Source of the DNA: Buttiauxella gaviniae
Lineage (GTDB): Bacteria > Pseudomonadota > Gammaproteobacteria > Enterobacterales > Enterobacteriaceae
Direction: 5' to 3'
Length of the DNA: 64,000 nucleotides
NCBI RefSeq assembly: GCF_040786275.1
Contig: NZ_JBFMVT010000002.1
Span: 4,340,001-4,404,000, forward strand
Shown here: positions 18,160-22,945 of the stretch, in pieces
How the letters are laid out: every line of letters starts with the position of its first letter
Position numbering within the stretch: position 1 is the stretch's first letter
Position numbers and translations under genes: made by a program
Notes under the pieces: generated by a model
Database searches by the model: none
Seen by the model: the letters and a program-made list of their open reading frames with translations, nothing else
Told to the model about the DNA's origin: nothing

Positions 18160-18717
18160 TTATCGTCCGTATGTTGCTGTTAATTGTGTTTTGGCAATCA
18201 CATTGCTGTTCAGCATAAAGCCGACCAACGCCCCGCTCGCATTCATGTCTATTGGCAGTTTATCGGCACTCAGCGCCCAAACGGTAAACTGATAGCGATG
18301 CGCTTTAGCGCCCGCCGGAGGGCATGCGCCGCCGAATCCAGCATACCCAAAATCATTGCGCCCCTGAACCGCGCCAGCAGGCAATTTAGGTTTTGCTGCA
18401 TCACCCGCTCCGGCAGGAATGGTACGGGTTTCAGCCGGGATATTCACCACCGTCCAGTGCCACCAGCCGCTGCCGCTTGGCGCATCCGGATCATAAACCG
18501 TGACCGCAAAACTTTTTGTACCTGCCGGGGGATTCTTCCAGGCCAGTTGCGGCGAAATATTGCTCCCGCTACAGCCAAAGCCCTGGAAAACCTGAGTCTC
18601 GGTTAAGGGTTTATCCTGCGAAATATCACTGCTGCTGACGGTGAAAGCTGACGCCGCCGAAACGCTAAAACTCAATGTAGCCAAAATACTAGCAGACAAG
18701 ATTGCGACTCTTTTCAT
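18160..18717 (-). CDS. YbcL-like periplasmic protein (PEBP/Raf kinase inhibitor-like family)
   Basis: A 185-residue member of the YbhB/YbcL phosphatidylethanolamine-binding-protein family. It carries the family core YDPDAPSGSGWWHWTVVNIP (about 76-95) and GRNDFGYAGFGGACPP (about 119-134) and has a Sec signal peptide at residues 1-24 ending near SAASA. The overall sequence follows E. coli YbcL closely. The family binds small anionic ligands; a YbcL variant of uropathogenic E. coli is reported to dampen neutrophil migration, but nothing in this sequence shows that function. It precedes the AraC-type regulator in one operon. Confidence 0.87.
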   Translation of the reverse strand: MKRVAILSASILATLSFSVSAASAFTVSSSDISQDKPLTETQVFQGFGCSGSNISPQLAWKNPPAGTKSFAVTVYDPDAPSGSGWWHWTVVNIPAETRTIPAGAGDAAKPKLPAGAVQGRNDFGYAGFGGACPPAGAKAHRYQFTVWALSADKLPIDMNASGALVGFMLNSNVIAKTQLTATYGR

Positions 18718-18896
18718 TGTTTTTCCTCGATTTGGGTAAGAGTCACCAATGTAAAGTGCGCCGCAATCGCATGTTGTGCCTGTATGATTTTATTTTGTGC
18801 CGAAACGCTCAGGGAAGAAATCGGTAGCTGGAATTTAGTGATCTTTTCTGCCAGGATTTCCGCACCTATAAACTAACTGAATATAAGGAGGATCCC

Positions 18897-18980
18897 ATGC
18901 TGTTTTGTGAAATGTTGTTTATTTCGCAGACTTTTGGCGATCGTCATAGCTCAAGCGTTATCGATATCGCCCTGCGATAA
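18897..18980 (+). CDS. 27-residue upstream ORF, likely leader peptide of the ABC-F gene
   Basis: ATG with a near-ideal AAGGAGG six bases upstream opens a 27-codon frame (starts MLFCEMLFISQTF, ends SSVIDIALR) that stops with TAA at 18978. This Shine-Dalgarno is far better than that of the ABC-F gene, which starts 110 bases further on. The last ten codons lie inside a long hairpin arm, so ribosome position would control folding. No similarity to a known peptide is recognised. The hydrophobic start could also mean a tiny membrane protein. Confidence 0.6.
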   Translation: MLFCEMLFISQTFGDRHSSSVIDIALR

Positions 18981-19037
18981 TCCGGCTTGAGCGAAGCAAA
19001 CCACTAAATCCCTTCCCTCGGGCTTACCGGGTTATCG
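18949..19037 (+). promoter_or_regulatory. Attenuator-like alternative hairpins in the ABC-F leader
   Basis: Hairpin I pairs GCTCAAGC and TTATCG (18949-18963) with CGATAA and GCTTGAGC (18975-18992). Hairpin II pairs the same 3' arm, CGATAATCCGG (18975-18985), with CCGGGTTATCG (19027-19037), 11 pairs with one G-U. The two structures exclude each other. The 5' arm of hairpin I is within the upstream ORF, so a ribosome there would favour hairpin II. In addition CTCAAG (18950-18955) could pair with CTTGAG (19076-19081) just before the ABC-F start. A further short stem AGGCGTT/AACGCCT lies at 19054-19069. Confidence 0.6.
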
Positions 19038-19090
19038 TCAGCCATATTTGACGAGGCGTTTTAACGCCTGTAACTCTTGAGTAAGCAACA

Positions 19091-20824
19091 ATGAGCACAT
19101 TATTAACCGCACAATCTCTTAGCCTTGATACCGCATTCGGCCCTCTGCTGGCAGACATTACCTTTACCCTGAAAAAAGGCGATCGCCTGGGTTTAATCGG
19201 CCACAACGGCTGTGGGAAAAGTACCCTCCTGAAATTGCTTGATGGCACGCTTTCGCCCAATAGTGGCAACGTGACGCGGGCGCATCACTGCCTTCTCGCG
19301 CGTGTCGAACAGCATCTCCCTGAAGATTTGCATTCACTGACCCTGCTTGACGCGGTGATGGCAAAATTAAGCGTGGCACAACAGCATACCGATGGCTGGC
19401 GAGCGCAGGCGCTTCTTGCCAGCATGGGTTTTGATGAATCCGCATGCCAGCTCACCGCCGGAACGTTAAGCGGCGGGCAGCACACGCGATTATTACTGGC
19501 GCGCGCGTTGATTACCGAACCCGATCTTCTGCTATTAGACGAGCCGAGTAACCACCTCGATTTGCCGACTTTGCTGTGGCTTGAGCAGTTTTTACGTAAC
19601 TGGAACGGCAGCTTTGTGCTGGTTTCCCACGATCAACATCTGTTGGATAACGTCACCAACGGAACGTGGATTTTACGCGACCGCGGGCTAAGTTTCTTCC
19701 AGTTGCCCTGCTCTGCGGCACGCGCTGCGTTAGTTGAACGTGACCGAACGGATGCCCATCGCCACCAGGCGGAGCAAAAGGAAATTGACCGCATTGCCGC
19801 CAGCGCCAAACGGCTGGCGATTTGGGGCCGCGTTTACGATAACGAAGACCTCGCCCGCAAAGCCAAGCAGATGGAAAAGCGCGTAGACAAGTTAAAAGAC
19901 AGCCAAACCGAGCTGAGTGCTGCAAATCAGTGGCAACTGATTCTGAAAGGTGAAGCGTTACCCGCAGACAGATTGCTGGAGATGGAAAACCTTGCCGTCA
20001 GGCCTGCACCAGATTGCCCGCCGCTGTTTACCTTACCGCTGAACCGCGTGAAAAGTGGCGATCGGGTGGCGATCATTGGGCGTAACGGGTGTGGAAAATC
20101 GTCTCTGCTACGTTTGCTGTGGCAGCACTATCGGCAGCCGCAGGATGAAAAGGCGATTCGCCTGCATGGACGCGTCAATATGGGGTATTACGACCAGACG
20201 CTACACCAGTTACGCGATGGCGACACGCTGCTCGAAGCGCTCGAACCTTTCGCCGCGTTGACCGAGCGTGACCGCAAAATGGCGTTAATCAGCGCCGGAT
20301 TTGCATGGCTGCGTCACGGGCAAAAGGTGAGTACGTTAAGCGGCGGCGAGCGCTCCAGGCTGCTTTTCGTTGGGCTGACGCTTGCCCGTTATTCTCTGTT
20401 ATTGCTGGATGAGCCGACCAACCATCTGGATATGGAAGGCAAAGAGGCGCTGGCGGAAACGCTGCAAAGTTACGAAGGCGGCGTGTTATTGGTGACGCAT
20501 GACCGAACGTTAATCGCGAAAAGCTGCAACCGCTTCTGGCTGATTGATAACGGCGAGCTGAGCGAATGGCACTCTCTGGAGGGCCTTTATGCGCGGCTGA
20601 TTACGGATAACACAGGCGATGCGTTACCGCCTTCGCAACAGACTCAAGCCATTGCGCAATCAACCACGCATAGCGAAATGGAGACCTGGCTGGAACGGCT
20701 GGTGGATCTTGAGGAAAAACTTGCCCAGGATTTAGCCCGTAAACAAAGCCACCAAAAACCCGCTTTACAGCAGCAGTGGCGTGAAGAGATTGAGATGCTG
20801 AATCTGCGGCTGGAAGAGGAGTAA
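19091..20824 (+). CDS. ABC-F family ATPase (ribosome-associated type)
   Basis: A 577-residue protein with two ABC ATPase domains and no transmembrane segment, the ABC-F architecture of translation factors (EttA, Uup, YbiT, YheS) and of antibiotic target-protection proteins. Domain 1 has Walker A GHNGCGKST (38-46), signature LSGGQHTRL and Walker B LLLLDEPSNHL; domain 2 has GRNGCGKSS (about 328), LSGGERSRL and LLLLDEPTNHL. The inter-domain linker (about 215-290) is charged and helical as expected for the P-site tRNA interaction motif, and the C-terminus ends in a Glu-rich helix. It is none of the four standard E. coli ABC-F proteins that I can match. The weak ribosome binding site and attenuator-like leader suggest expression induced by translational stress. 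Confidence 0.88.
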   Translation: MSTLLTAQSLSLDTAFGPLLADITFTLKKGDRLGLIGHNGCGKSTLLKLLDGTLSPNSGNVTRAHHCLLARVEQHLPEDLHSLTLLDAVMAKLSVAQQHTDGWRAQALLASMGFDESACQLTAGTLSGGQHTRLLLARALITEPDLLLLDEPSNHLDLPTLLWLEQFLRNWNGSFVLVSHDQHLLDNVTNGTWILRDRGLSFFQLPCSAARAALVERDRTDAHRHQAEQKEIDRIAASAKRLAIWGRVYDNEDLARKAKQMEKRVDKLKDSQTELSAANQWQLILKGEALPADRLLEMENLAVRPAPDCPPLFTLPLNRVKSGDRVAIIGRNGCGKSSLLRLLWQHYRQPQDEKAIRLHGRVNMGYYDQTLHQLRDGDTLLEALEPFAALTERDRKMALISAGFAWLRHGQKVSTLSGGERSRLLFVGLTLARYSLLLLDEPTNHLDMEGKEALAETLQSYEGGVLLVTHDRTLIAKSCNRFWLIDNGELSEWHSLEGLYARLITDNTGDALPPSQQTQAIAQSTTHSEMETWLERLVDLEEKLAQDLARKQSHQKPALQQQWREEIEMLNLRLEEE

Positions 20825-20875: not shown

Positions 20876-22852
20876 TCAGAACGTCGCGCTGAGCCCCACG
20901 TTATAGCTGGTTTGGTTGCCGTCACTCAGACCGCCGGTTTGCGCGACGGCGGCAAAAGCAGACACGGTACTGGAAAGCGGCATATCAGCCCCGACGGCGA
21001 AATCTACCCAGTTTTTATCCTGCGTTTCTCCCGCACGACTGAAGGTAAGCGCCGTCGATTTCAGGCCGCCATTGGCGCCGTAAACATCATCCCCAAATTG
21101 ATGGCGATAATTCACCTGCACCCACGGATTGACGATGCCCAGATTGGTATCCAATCGCCAGCCTGCGCTGCCAATTTGTGAATGACCATTCTGATCGCCA
21201 AAACGCATGGCGGTTGTGCTGTTGCCCGTTTCGCTATAACCATCAACATGGCTGTAATCCCAGGCGTATTGCAGCATTGGCCCGGTGGTCAGCCAGTTGG
21301 TCACCGGGAAATCGTAGCCTACGGTCATGCGAGCGCCCCACAATTTACCGTTTGTATCCCCCTCTTCGGTGCGCGTTAGCTGCCCGAGCGTGATTTTGCG
21401 CTGAATGTTATCAAAATCGGCCGTCAGGTAATGAACGTCGCTATCCAGCCATGCCTGCCCGAATCGCAAATGGCTGAATAAAGCGGCCTGGAAACCTTTC
21501 GCATCATAGCGATAATTATCATCCGGGCGCTGTTTATCGAGCGAGCCCGCAATCAGCCCGCCCACCAGAAGGTAGTCATTTAGCTGATAATCCACACCAA
21601 GCGCCAGATTATTGGTATTCCCGTTGCCATCCCCCGAAGTGTGATTGCCATCAAAACGCTGATACCCGCCGCTATAGCCGCCAAAAACGCCTGTTGAACC
21701 GACCGCGTTATCGCCGTGGCGAAGCTGCTGATAGCGGCCATCAAGCGTGGCGCGACTTCCGCGAATCATCGCCTGGGTCCCCTGATTCAGGTACGACACC
21801 TGCACAGGGGCGTTAACGATCGCTTCAATATATTGCGCGATGATGGTATGCACCTGCGGGCCAGGATGGAGATGGTCGGCAAAGAGATATTCCTGGGCGG
21901 AGCTGAAACCTGGCGTTGAGGAAGAACATTCATTCGCCCCCACGCCCGGCGGGCAAGCCATACCCACGGTGTTGGTCAGGCCGTACGCCTGCGGATTTGC
22001 CAGAATGTCCTGGAAGATACCGTTGATGTCCGCCCGCGCAATATTCCCGCCATGCTGCAGGAGCGCACTCTCTTCCGTATTGTTGTAGTACGTTGTGAGT
22101 GCGGAGGCCTGCTGCGCGGCGGTATCGTAGGCGGCTATCAGTTGAGCGGCGATGCCCTGCTGAATCAACGGATTACTGCTGACCACCGATGCGGCGGCGG
22201 TTAACGCCTGATGAATCGCCTGTTGGCGGCGGGCGAGATCCGTTGGCTGCGCTGCATTAAGCGACGCGAAAGCCGCCTGTATCGCCGGCGTCGCGGCAGC
22301 GCCAAGCCCTACCGTCAGCACGGATTCCAGCAGCAAAGGTGTTGCGCTGATGTCTGGCACATTCGGCACCACAACCAGCCCCGCCCCCGCATCCAGGAGT
22401 CTACCCACCTGCGCACCGGCATTGGTGGCGCTGTTAGCGGCAATGGACTGCGCAAGCGCTGGCTGAATCGCGGCGGCGGCAAGATCGTTACCCCCAATCC
22501 AGTGGATATACAGACCATTTGCATCGGCTTTACCGCCTGTCTGGCTGAACCATTGCGCGAGCTGATCTTGCGTATTATCAGCCGGATTAAGAAGCGGCAC
22601 GGCTGTTGCGCCCCCTGCGGCATAATTGCTGCCGCCCGCCCGGGAAGGCGTTAGCTGCAATCCGTAACGGTCAGCAAGTTGCTCATCGTAGAGTTTGTTT
22701 TGCGCGCTGTTCCACGTCCAGCGCCCGTTATTTCCGGTATCGCTCAGGCTGTCGCCAAATACCGTCAATGAATCGAATGCGCAAACCGGCGCGGCTAACC
22801 CTACAGCCACGGCCAGAGAGCTTAATTTGAGTAACGTGTGTTTGCAGGTCAT
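20876..22852 (-). CDS. apeE: ApeE, outer-membrane autotransporter esterase (GDSL family)
   Basis: A 658-residue type Va autotransporter whose passenger is a GDSL-type esterase hydrolysing short acyl esters at the cell surface. Seen: signal peptide 1-25, block I FGDSLSDTGN with nucleophile Ser35, block III GGNDLAAA, and block V ADHLHPGPQ with the catalytic Asp and His. From about residue 380 the protein is a beta-barrel translocator that ends in the outer-membrane signature phenylalanine (GLSATF). It follows Salmonella ApeE along the full length. I chose the ATG at 22852, which has AAGGA seven bases upstream; a longer frame starting at 22879 would take its first codons from the ERIC-like element and lacks a ribosome binding site. 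Confidence 0.93.
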   Translation of the reverse strand: MTCKHTLLKLSSLAVAVGLAAPVCAFDSLTVFGDSLSDTGNNGRWTWNSAQNKLYDEQLADRYGLQLTPSRAGGSNYAAGGATAVPLLNPADNTQDQLAQWFSQTGGKADANGLYIHWIGGNDLAAAAIQPALAQSIAANSATNAGAQVGRLLDAGAGLVVVPNVPDISATPLLLESVLTVGLGAAATPAIQAAFASLNAAQPTDLARRQQAIHQALTAAASVVSSNPLIQQGIAAQLIAAYDTAAQQASALTTYYNNTEESALLQHGGNIARADINGIFQDILANPQAYGLTNTVGMACPPGVGANECSSSTPGFSSAQEYLFADHLHPGPQVHTIIAQYIEAIVNAPVQVSYLNQGTQAMIRGSRATLDGRYQQLRHGDNAVGSTGVFGGYSGGYQRFDGNHTSGDGNGNTNNLALGVDYQLNDYLLVGGLIAGSLDKQRPDDNYRYDAKGFQAALFSHLRFGQAWLDSDVHYLTADFDNIQRKITLGQLTRTEEGDTNGKLWGARMTVGYDFPVTNWLTTGPMLQYAWDYSHVDGYSETGNSTTAMRFGDQNGHSQIGSAGWRLDTNLGIVNPWVQVNYRHQFGDDVYGANGGLKSTALTFSRAGETQDKNWVDFAVGADMPLSSTVSAFAAVAQTGGLSDGNQTSYNVGLSATF

Positions 22853-22868
22853 TACATTTTCCTTGTAA

Positions 22869-22945
22869 ATACCCTTCATACTTCACGTTGCTGATGCGTT
22901 GGCTACGCTAGTTCGCATTCCCGCAACTCGAATTATTGTGGGTAT
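22869..22945. repeat. Shortened ERIC-like (IRU) element upstream of apeE
   Basis: The 77-bp block starts with ATACCCTTCATACTTCA and GTTGC, continues with GCGTTGGCTACGC, and ends with GCAACTCGAATTATT and GGGTAT. These are the conserved outer parts of enterobacterial ERIC/IRU sequences, while the central palindrome is missing. The ends are inverted (ATACCC / GGGTAT). It lies directly upstream of the apeE ribosome binding site, so it is part of its leader or promoter. Confidence 0.6.

Follow-up and report, generated by a model that had tools for sequence, protein, structure and literature searches.

The 64,000-nt stretch of the Buttiauxella gaviniae genome analyzed here (contig NZ_JBFMVT010000002.1, positions 4,340,001 to 4,404,000; hereafter, the window, to which all coordinates refer) carries a gene for an ATPase of the ABC-F family. 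This gene is preceded by a leader that contains a short upstream open reading frame (uORF) and at least four RNA arms that can enter competing pairings. The leader was compared with its counterparts at 181 loci, which comprise 151 distinct leaders. We consider it likely that this leader acts by translational attenuation, as a sensor of ribosome position on the uORF, with the ABC-F protein as the likely countermeasure against translation stress. The features of the locus, all on the plus strand, are listed below; helices are denoted by the arms that they join (for example, 1:2).

18852..18857, plus strand: putative −10 box CAGGAT, 45 bases before the ATG of the uORF (aligned by eye to relatives)
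18885..18891, plus strand: Shine-Dalgarno motif AAGGAGG of the uORF (sequence; 7/7 bases in 147 and 6/7 in 4 of the 151 distinct leaders)
18897..18980, plus strand: uORF, 27 codons and a TAA stop (scan of loci, spacing in threes, stop avoidance)
18906..18928, plus strand: hairpin P0 in the first half of the uORF, 18906–18913 with 18921–18928 (chimera test, pair counts)
18949..18963, plus strand: arm 1, uORF codons −10 to −6 counted back from the stop (partner, arm 2 or arm 4)
18974..18996, plus strand: arm 2, last uORF codon, stop and the bases after it (partner, arm 1 or arm 3)
19012..19038, plus strand: arm 3 (partner, arm 2, or arm 4 via 19022–19028)
19036..19053, plus strand: small hairpin, 19036–19040 with 19049–19053, overlapping the end of arm 3 (pair counts)
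19054..19069, plus strand: small hairpin, 19054–19059 with 19064–19069 (pair counts)
19071..19086, plus strand: arm 4 and ABC-F ribosome binding region, CTTGAGTAAGC (swap test, pair counts, hexamer pairing)
19091..20824, plus strand: ABC-F ATPase, 577 amino acids, probably of subfamily PAF1 (Pfam ABC_tran in two stretches, NCBIfam, genus distribution)

A preliminary description of this locus had named a 27-codon uORF with an AAGGAGG motif, a hairpin I formed by the end of the uORF, an alternative helix, and a complementarity between the uORF and the ribosome binding region of the ABC-F gene. All of these are present. The uORF occupies 18897–18980 and its Shine-Dalgarno motif 18885–18891; hairpin I pairs 18949–18956 with 18985–18992 (8 of 8 pairs) and 18957–18963 with 18975–18981 (7 pairs, one G-U); the alternative helix joins 18975–18985 to 19027–19037 by 11 pairs, one of them G-U; and CTCAAG at 18950–18955 is complementary to CTTGAG at 19076–19081. 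The fourth pairing (3:4), P0, the two small hairpins, and the −10-like box are additions to that list. The leader (18884–19110) folds at −73.1 kcal/mol, compared with −55.0 ± 4.3 kcal/mol for 200 dinucleotide shuffles (z −4.2), none of which matches its energy. No known RNA family was recognized with Rfam, which yielded no match in the window at the gathering score and none in 18750–19150 up to an E value of 10. Chance does not account for the arrangement: all lineages examined have the uORF, and most of them have the pairings.

Conservation of the leader

According to a scan for an open reading frame of 22–36 codons with a good Shine-Dalgarno motif, 150–330 bases before the ABC-F start, a counterpart of the uORF precedes the gene in 180 of the 181 loci. 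In the remaining one, L095, the same uORF was seen by eye, with the ribosome binding site farther away. This final version of the scan permits a longer spacer; stricter versions missed L095, L119, L159, L161, and L170, in the last three of which the uORF is plain by eye. The loci consist of the window, 39 from genus and family searches, the best 80 of 577 matches, 21 from a further search, and 40 fetched from the remaining matches; the 40 are mostly the more divergent ones, and some of the 181 loci represent the same genome twice. The uORF has 24–28 codons in 149 of the 151 distinct leaders. It is found, among others, in Citrobacter, Enterobacter, Klebsiella, Serratia, Yersinia, Morganella, Vibrio, and Photobacterium, and also in an Aeromonas caviae record outside the 181 loci. 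The most divergent orthologues, from several families and with about 50–55% protein identity, retain the uORF, as do plasmid-borne copies of the ABC-F gene in Morganella and Pantoea (likewise outside the 181 loci). The preliminary description had called for a conserved uORF in orthologues and would have taken a uORF-less orthologue as evidence against attenuation; the uORF is conserved, and no locus among the 181 lacks it. The scope has to be corrected, however: the leader is not confined to a single enterobacterial gene but accompanies this gene family across Enterobacterales and their neighbours.

A leader model, R1, was built from arm 1 up to the ABC-F start; with only 12 pairs in its underlying RNAalifold structure, it relies mainly on sequence. 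The model produces one strong match in the B. gaviniae genome; a second copy there was rejected, the next-best match being noise (E 6.5). Across 295 genomes of the order, it gave 31 matches in 31 genomes, each abutting an ABC-F gene; ten candidates were scored per genome under strict filters, some of the leaders were in the model, and the count runs from leader to gene, leaving out gene-bearing genomes without a leader match. Judged by these sequence matches, and within the limits of the model scan, the leader belongs to the ABC-F gene.

In two Buttiauxella relatives (L009 and L010), insertions lie between arms 2 and 3, so that the uORF and the gene are 239 and 311 bases apart; by eye the arms are retained despite the insertions, as expected if the arms alone matter. 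One plasmid copy (L204) resides on Morganella morganii plasmid p48659_1 (50.6 kb, from a urine isolate), where the ABC-F gene and its leader stand among chromosome-like genes; PLSDB classes this plasmid as non-mobilizable. Plasmid matches of chromosome size (H3, H39, H34, H35) are apparently chromosomes under a wrong label and were left aside in judging mobility.

Competing RNA pairings

Co-variation was assessed with a swap test, in which the duplex energies of cognate arms were compared with those of arms re-dealt among species. This test and the ribosome masks described below used 143 of the 151 distinct leaders, namely, those with a uORF of 25–28 codons, a C-terminal R, and fewer than 225 bases between uORF and gene. 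Three competing pairings co-vary, 1:2 (cognate −16.4 versus re-dealt −14.8, z −8.6), 1:4 (−12.0 versus −10.1, z −9.7), and 2:3 (−23.0 versus −21.1, z −11.3), and 3:4 co-varies more weakly (−11.9 versus −11.2, z −4.8). No co-variation was found for the control combinations 1:3 (z −0.5) and 2:4 (z +0.3), and because these controls share the sequences and their kinship, relatedness alone is unlikely to be the cause. The segments taken for arms 2 and 3 overlap in 9 of the 143 leaders; earlier segments for 2:3, starting 40 bases after the stop, agree (−21.2 versus −19.8 ± 0.18). An earlier segment for 3:4, taken as a control, co-varied too (−16.3 versus −15.0 ± 0.19) because it held one side of the 19054 hairpin, and the test was repeated without that part.

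The fourth helix, 3:4, which joins 19022–19028 to 19079–19086 over the ABC-F ribosome binding site, was given by RNAalifold. With it, a two-state switch of 1:2 versus 2:3 only was abandoned, and the two-alternative fold of the preliminary description became a switch with at least four arms.

Pair counts were made in an alignment (A1) of 42 of 43 reference leaders, L108 being omitted for its misplaced start; another alignment (A3) holds 34 of 37 leaders, without L094, L135, and L141. In A1, structure A (P0, 1:2, and the small hairpins) reaches 93.7% pairing and has 9 pairs with changes on both sides, versus 5.0 in shuffles, and structure B (P0, 2:3, 1:4, and the 19054 hairpin) is 93.1% paired, with 9 such pairs versus 5.9; for the pairing of arm 4, 94.9% of the cells are paired. 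Compensatory changes, the check proposed in the preliminary description, are present in both of its pairing alternatives. The Rahnella leaders L088, L094, and L101, for example, have AGG instead of AAG in arm 1, together with CCT in arm 4 and, in arm 2, either CCT or a TCT that forms a G-U pair. An Aeromonas-type leader (L171) has GCTCTTGC in arm 1 opposite GCAAGAGC in arm 4, and in the hairpin around the uORF stop of Morganella-type leaders (e.g., L112), a change of CGA to CGT is accompanied by one of ATC to AAC. In 125 of the 143 leaders, the 24 bases preceding the gene contain a hexamer with which that of arm 1 can pair fully. By swap tests and pair counts, the leader thus has the competing pairings of an attenuator, with at least one of them locking the ribosome binding site of the gene.

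The local hairpins were assessed as well. The cognate halves of P0 fold at −6.28, compared with −4.87 ± 0.17 after swapping (control region, −3.59 versus −3.54 ± 0.14); in A1, 3 of its 8 pairs are changed on both sides, and 85.7% of the cells are paired. The hairpin 19036–19040/19049–19053 is paired in 98.6% of its cells there, without any pair altered on both sides. In the hairpin 19054–19059/19064–19069, 3 of 6 pairs are changed on both sides, including one that goes from A-U to G-C in 13 of the 42 leaders.

Translation of the uORF and selection on its peptide

The distance from the ATG of the uORF to arm 1 is 44, 50, 53, or 56 bases, that is, a single residue modulo 3, in 146 of the 149 leaders in which it could be placed; the two non-coding spacers after the uORF have lengths of every residue modulo 3. 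Substitutions were counted on a minimum spanning tree of 102 distinct 27-codon uORFs, skipping edges with more than 12 changes and keeping 447 changes in codons 2–27 of the 601 on the whole tree. Only 1 substitution created or removed a stop codon, compared with 12.8 ± 3.2 expected, of which 8.5 would fall in codons 2–11. Both tests use uORFs that the scan had already found open, but they are informative nevertheless because 180 of the 181 loci passed the scan, and the fact that only L110 and L145 show a changed uORF end gives them added weight. The length steps of three and the avoidance of stops indicate that the frame is kept open, and the uORF is probably translated in vivo. Together with the Shine-Dalgarno motif, these features are those expected of the translated uORF of a ribosome-mediated attenuator. 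A structured RNA, such as a riboswitch or a protein-binding leader, with an incidental reading frame would fit the RNA-level constraint that dominates the second half of the uORF, but not the AAGGAGG motif in 147 of 151 leaders, the frame-keeping spacing, or the avoidance of stops, and there is no Rfam match up to E 10; we consider such an element extremely improbable.

Synonymous changes are not enriched across the uORF (122 observed, compared with 132.3 ± 9.0 expected), so that purifying selection of the kind expected for an arrest peptide is not apparent, although some residues may yet be important. Within the final ten codons, conservation is highest at third positions, as RNA pairing would cause. 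Apparently, the frame of the uORF matters, the sequence of the peptide largely does not, and the second half is held by RNA pairing. The lack of purifying selection beyond the open frame argues against an arrest peptide of the ErmCL type and for a sensor of ribosome position.

These results bear on the possibility that the nascent chain itself stalls the ribosome in the presence of a drug or a metabolite, as ErmCL or MsrDL do. Such a sequence-specific arrest peptide could explain the C-terminal (V/A)LR-stop (R in 148 and L in 141 of the 151 distinct leaders), the Ser at −9 in 148 of them, and a slight excess of synonymous changes in codons 12–17 (54 versus 46.5 ± 4.8, P 0.08). However, an overall synonymous excess is missing, the third bases of the last ten codons are the most conserved, as pairing predicts, the macrolide motif [RK]x[RK] occurs in only 13 of 151 leaders, and a stall modelled at the stop codon leaves arm 4 closed. 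A reading of IVLR-stop as a motif for stalling was set aside, since pairing can explain its conservation, as shown by the codon entropies and by the hairpin that encloses the stop. The substitution test gave no sign of a conserved arrest peptide, and we judge this mechanism unlikely.

Simulated ribosome positions

For each of the 143 leaders, a ribosome was represented by a mask from 14 bases before to 16 bases after the first base of the P-site codon, placed at codons −20 to the stop, and the leader was refolded. Accessibility was scored as arm-specific pairing, which replaced a blunter 17-base measure. In the absence of a ribosome, the model gives, on average, 2:3 together with 1:4 (12.0 and 4.6 expected pairs) beside 1:2 together with 3:4 (4.6 and 2.3). 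A ribosome at −14 to −7 is predicted to leave mainly 2:3, with at most 0.3 expected pairs of 1:4 and 1.4 of 3:4. At −5 to −2, 2:3 becomes weaker in the model and 3:4 reaches 4–5, and at the last codon and the stop, 1:4 comes back. Arm 4 has a mean pairing of 0.69, which drops to 0.52 with the P-site at codon −9; there is no such drop at −18 (0.68), −24, or −1 (the last codon, 0.71). Release by more than 0.1 at −9 was computed for 66% of the leaders versus 10% of 429 shuffles, in which dinucleotides were preserved through local exchanges alone; shuffled leaders showed no comparable change of arm 4 pairing under the masks. From these simulations, a pause in this part of the uORF would be predicted to raise ABC-F expression. 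For the leader of the window without a ribosome, 1:2 amounts to 0.03 expected pairs, compared with 20.6 for 2:3 and 6.8 for 1:4, so that, in the model, hairpin I hardly forms at equilibrium and the ground state is 2:3 with 1:4.

Codons −10 to −8, at which a halt would open arm 4, are mostly Cys or Ser, Ser, Ser, as might be expected of an amino-acid starvation attenuator that reads serine or cysteine codons in arm 1. However, the bases of these codons are fixed by two pairings, other residues occur at −10 and −8 (R, N, G, H or G, C, R), and there is no run of a single codon. Moreover, we know of no link between ABC-F proteins and serine metabolism, and we regard starvation control as very unlikely.

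Promoter, terminator, and neighbouring genes

In 129 of 150 leaders, a hexamer resembling a −10 box (TANNNT, matching TATAAT at 4 or more of its 6 positions) lies 60 to 43 bases upstream of the uORF ATG, compared with 32.9 ± 4.8 in shuffled sequences. In most leaders it is located 44–50 bases before the uORF start and reads TACACT, TACAAT, or TATAAT, a position that places the uORF inside the transcript. No hexamer of the window itself fits this pattern, CAGGAT being assigned by eye only. A scan of 18650–19150 for sigma-70-type sites reported none, upstream ones included; a promoter downstream of 19040, which had been proposed as an observation that would contradict attenuation, was not found. 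An intrinsic terminator of the MsrDL type was rejected, with 0 terminator-like sites in 18650–19150 of the window, the only sequence scanned for them.

The intergenic region of the leader is shared with a divergent gene for a YbhB/YbcL-like phosphatidylethanolamine-binding protein (18160–18717, minus strand). On the other side, the ABC-F gene is adjoined by a gene for a GDSL esterase with an autotransporter barrel (20876–22879, minus strand), which scores 153.7 of 1000 bits, far below the cut-off for EstP.

Identity of the ABC-F gene

The best NCBIfam model for the ABC-F protein is the general ribosomal-protection model ribo_prot_ABC_F (334.1 bits, cut-off 380). The curated cut-off of a named resistance family was not reached in any case (Msr, 228.4 of 680; Vga, 225.9 of 725). 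A comparison with the PDB places the protein at a similar distance from YheS and from ExpZ, the VmlR of B. subtilis. Orthologues in Buttiauxella have 87–90% identity; in the genus comparison, one genome (G001) has no match at E 1e-150, and each of the ten others searched has one. The gene is patchily distributed in the family, with matches at E 1e-150 in 110 of 392 genomes and 38 of 154 genera, and among 369 genomes drawn from the class, a match at E 1e-120 was found in the B. gaviniae genome only. A search of the E. coli collection (5,426 genomes) with blastn in distant mode, which reaches to about 65–70% DNA identity, found neither the leader nor the gene.

The survey of Murina et al. (2019; PMC6723617) predicted the subfamily PAF1 to be a resistance factor from its phylogeny and patchy distribution and places it in Vibrio, Enterobacter, Klebsiella, Serratia, and Citrobacter, but not in Escherichia; neither "attenuat" nor "upstream ORF" occurs in its main text. 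Orthologues of the present gene occur in the same five genera, and also in Endozoicomonas and Parendozoicomonas. The ABC-F protein is probably PAF1, that is, a member of a published candidate resistance subfamily, an assignment that we infer because it rests on this genus distribution. In the literature searched, PAF1 was used as an ABC-F name only in the 2019 survey, the other PAF1/ABCF matches being eukaryotic by title. No work on the leader was found by title or abstract start in a coverage that excludes most subscription papers.

Proposed mechanism

The layout of ribosome-controlled attenuation that was originally proposed is supported by the conserved uORF and the co-varying competing pairings. 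As a whole, the original interpretation stands with respect to this layout, the conservation, and the compensatory changes, and needs correction as to its scope, a whole gene family rather than a single gene, and the number of arms. From the anatomy, conservation, co-variation, and open-frame selection observed in the leaders, and from the computed positions that release arm 4, the following course of events can be proposed. With no paused ribosome, the leader would adopt either 2:3 with 1:4 or 1:2 with 3:4, and the ABC-F start would be locked either way. With a ribosome terminating at the uORF stop, arm 2 would be covered and arm 1 could still lock arm 4. If the halt came some 14 to 7 codons ahead of the stop, the ribosome would instead cover arm 1 but not arm 2; 2:3 could then form, arms 1 and 3 could not reach arm 4, and the ABC-F gene would be translated. 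The signal would likely be translation stress, for example, by a ribosome-targeting antibiotic, with the ABC-F protein as the countermeasure; we infer this signal, induction by drugs included, as well as the role of the gene.

Several results weigh against this mechanism. In the 42-leader alignment, 3:4 has no pair changed on both sides, 2:3 has one such pair of 22, its variation being nearly confined to one side, and pair types are no more numerous than in shuffles (24 versus 24.3; 39 versus 38.2). In 18 of the 143 leaders (e.g., L120 from Rouxiella, L142, and L174), a full partner for the arm 1 hexamer is missing near the start of the gene, and 34% of the 143 release arm 4 by 0.1 or less at −9. 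The arm 4 pairing of the window's own leader is 0.70 at −9, 0.47 at −14 and −6, and 0.68 with no ribosome; its regulated helices vanish under a ribosome in mid-uORF, and other pairings refill arm 4. Because thermodynamics ignores folding during transcription, the model supports the release positions and does not prove them. Finally, two leaders depart from the exact stop: in L110 the frame extends three codons beyond the usual stop, and in L145 a frameshift joins the end of the uORF to a longer frame. These altered ends may be natural tests of the exactness of the stop, or sequencing errors. Taken together, attenuation is well supported for the RNA architecture and the translation of the uORF; a drug-induced arrest peptide is not.

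The same switch might serve another purpose, as a broad sensor of translation stress for a housekeeping ABC-F protein, possibly autoregulated. Any slow ribosome, whether due to starvation, a drug, ribosome damage, or lack of the ABC-F protein, would then raise ABC-F expression, by a mechanism that overlaps with the one proposed here. The free peptide sequence fits sensing by position alone, E. coli toiL has been proposed to act in this way with several drug classes (PMC12121999), MsrD feeds back on its own leader (PMC10314930), and the ABC-F protein resembles YheS and VmlR/ExpZ to about the same degree. The patchiness of the gene (110 of 392 genomes, no blastn match in the E. coli collection) would, however, be unusual for a housekeeping factor, and we hold this variant to be a serious possibility, if short of an even chance.

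A more specific version of the attenuator can be offered tentatively, as being possible but rather doubtful. It would be a chromosome-borne Gram-negative drug-response switch, in which a double-locked, position-reading leader turns on the ribosome-protection protein PAF1 in Enterobacterales, Vibrio, and Aeromonas when drugs acting at the peptidyl transferase center halt ribosomes at the near-invariant Ser −9. Phenicols and oxazolidinones stall ribosomes when Ala, Ser, or Thr is next to the P-site. Of the 151 leaders, 150 have A, S, or T at residue −9 of the uORF, although RNA pairing alone could fix this residue. The dependence of stalling by these drugs on certain residues at a defined place of the nascent chain is described in PMC8987054, and as a testable guess, phenicols and oxazolidinones would be candidate inducers among the peptidyl transferase center drugs.

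If the attenuator reading is true, a deeply conserved antibiotic- or stress-responsive leader precedes the ABC-F gene in many Gram-negative bacteria, among them Klebsiella, Enterobacter, Serratia, and Citrobacter. The leader would be independent support for PAF1 as a candidate resistance or ribosome-rescue factor. It also predicts when the gene is on and would, accordingly, provide a handle on the natural inducer and hence on the function.

Comparison with known systems

The leaders of the ErmCL type are, like the one described here, four-arm translational attenuators in which the downstream ribosome binding site is locked; they differ in controlling a methyltransferase gene and in having a conserved arrest peptide, and to our knowledge, they have no second lock corresponding to 1:4. 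The hosts of vmlR, vgaA, lmo0919, and lmrC are Gram-positive bacteria, unlike those of the present leader. The leaders of these ABC-F resistance genes share with it attenuation before the gene, which for them is described as mostly transcriptional in PMC10314930; a title cited there indicates translation attenuation for vmlR as well. What PMC12992588 describes of RAPP arrest peptides has no bearing on the ABC-F leader.

At the level of the gene, the nearest parallel is MsrDL, the leader of msrD, in which a uORF likewise controls an ABC-F gene. However, MsrDL is a six-residue arrest peptide that stalls ribosomes at its stop codon and controls an intrinsic terminator (PMC10314930). The present uORF mostly has 26–28 codons and no conserved peptide, the window has no terminator-like site at the leader, and a stall at the stop is predicted not to induce.

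The nearest mechanism found is that of toiL, which precedes topAI-yjhQ in the Gram-negative E. coli. There, too, the uORF pairs with the downstream ribosome binding site, and stalled ribosomes are proposed to unmask this site; stalling anywhere in the uORF is proposed to be sufficient (PMC12121999). The two systems differ in the target, which for toiL is a toxin-antitoxin pair, and in the consequence, which there includes Rho-dependent termination (PMC12121999). Compared with toiL, the ABC-F leader has four arms and two locked states, occurs in several families, and in the model would release its gene mainly when ribosomes halt at codons −14 to −7.
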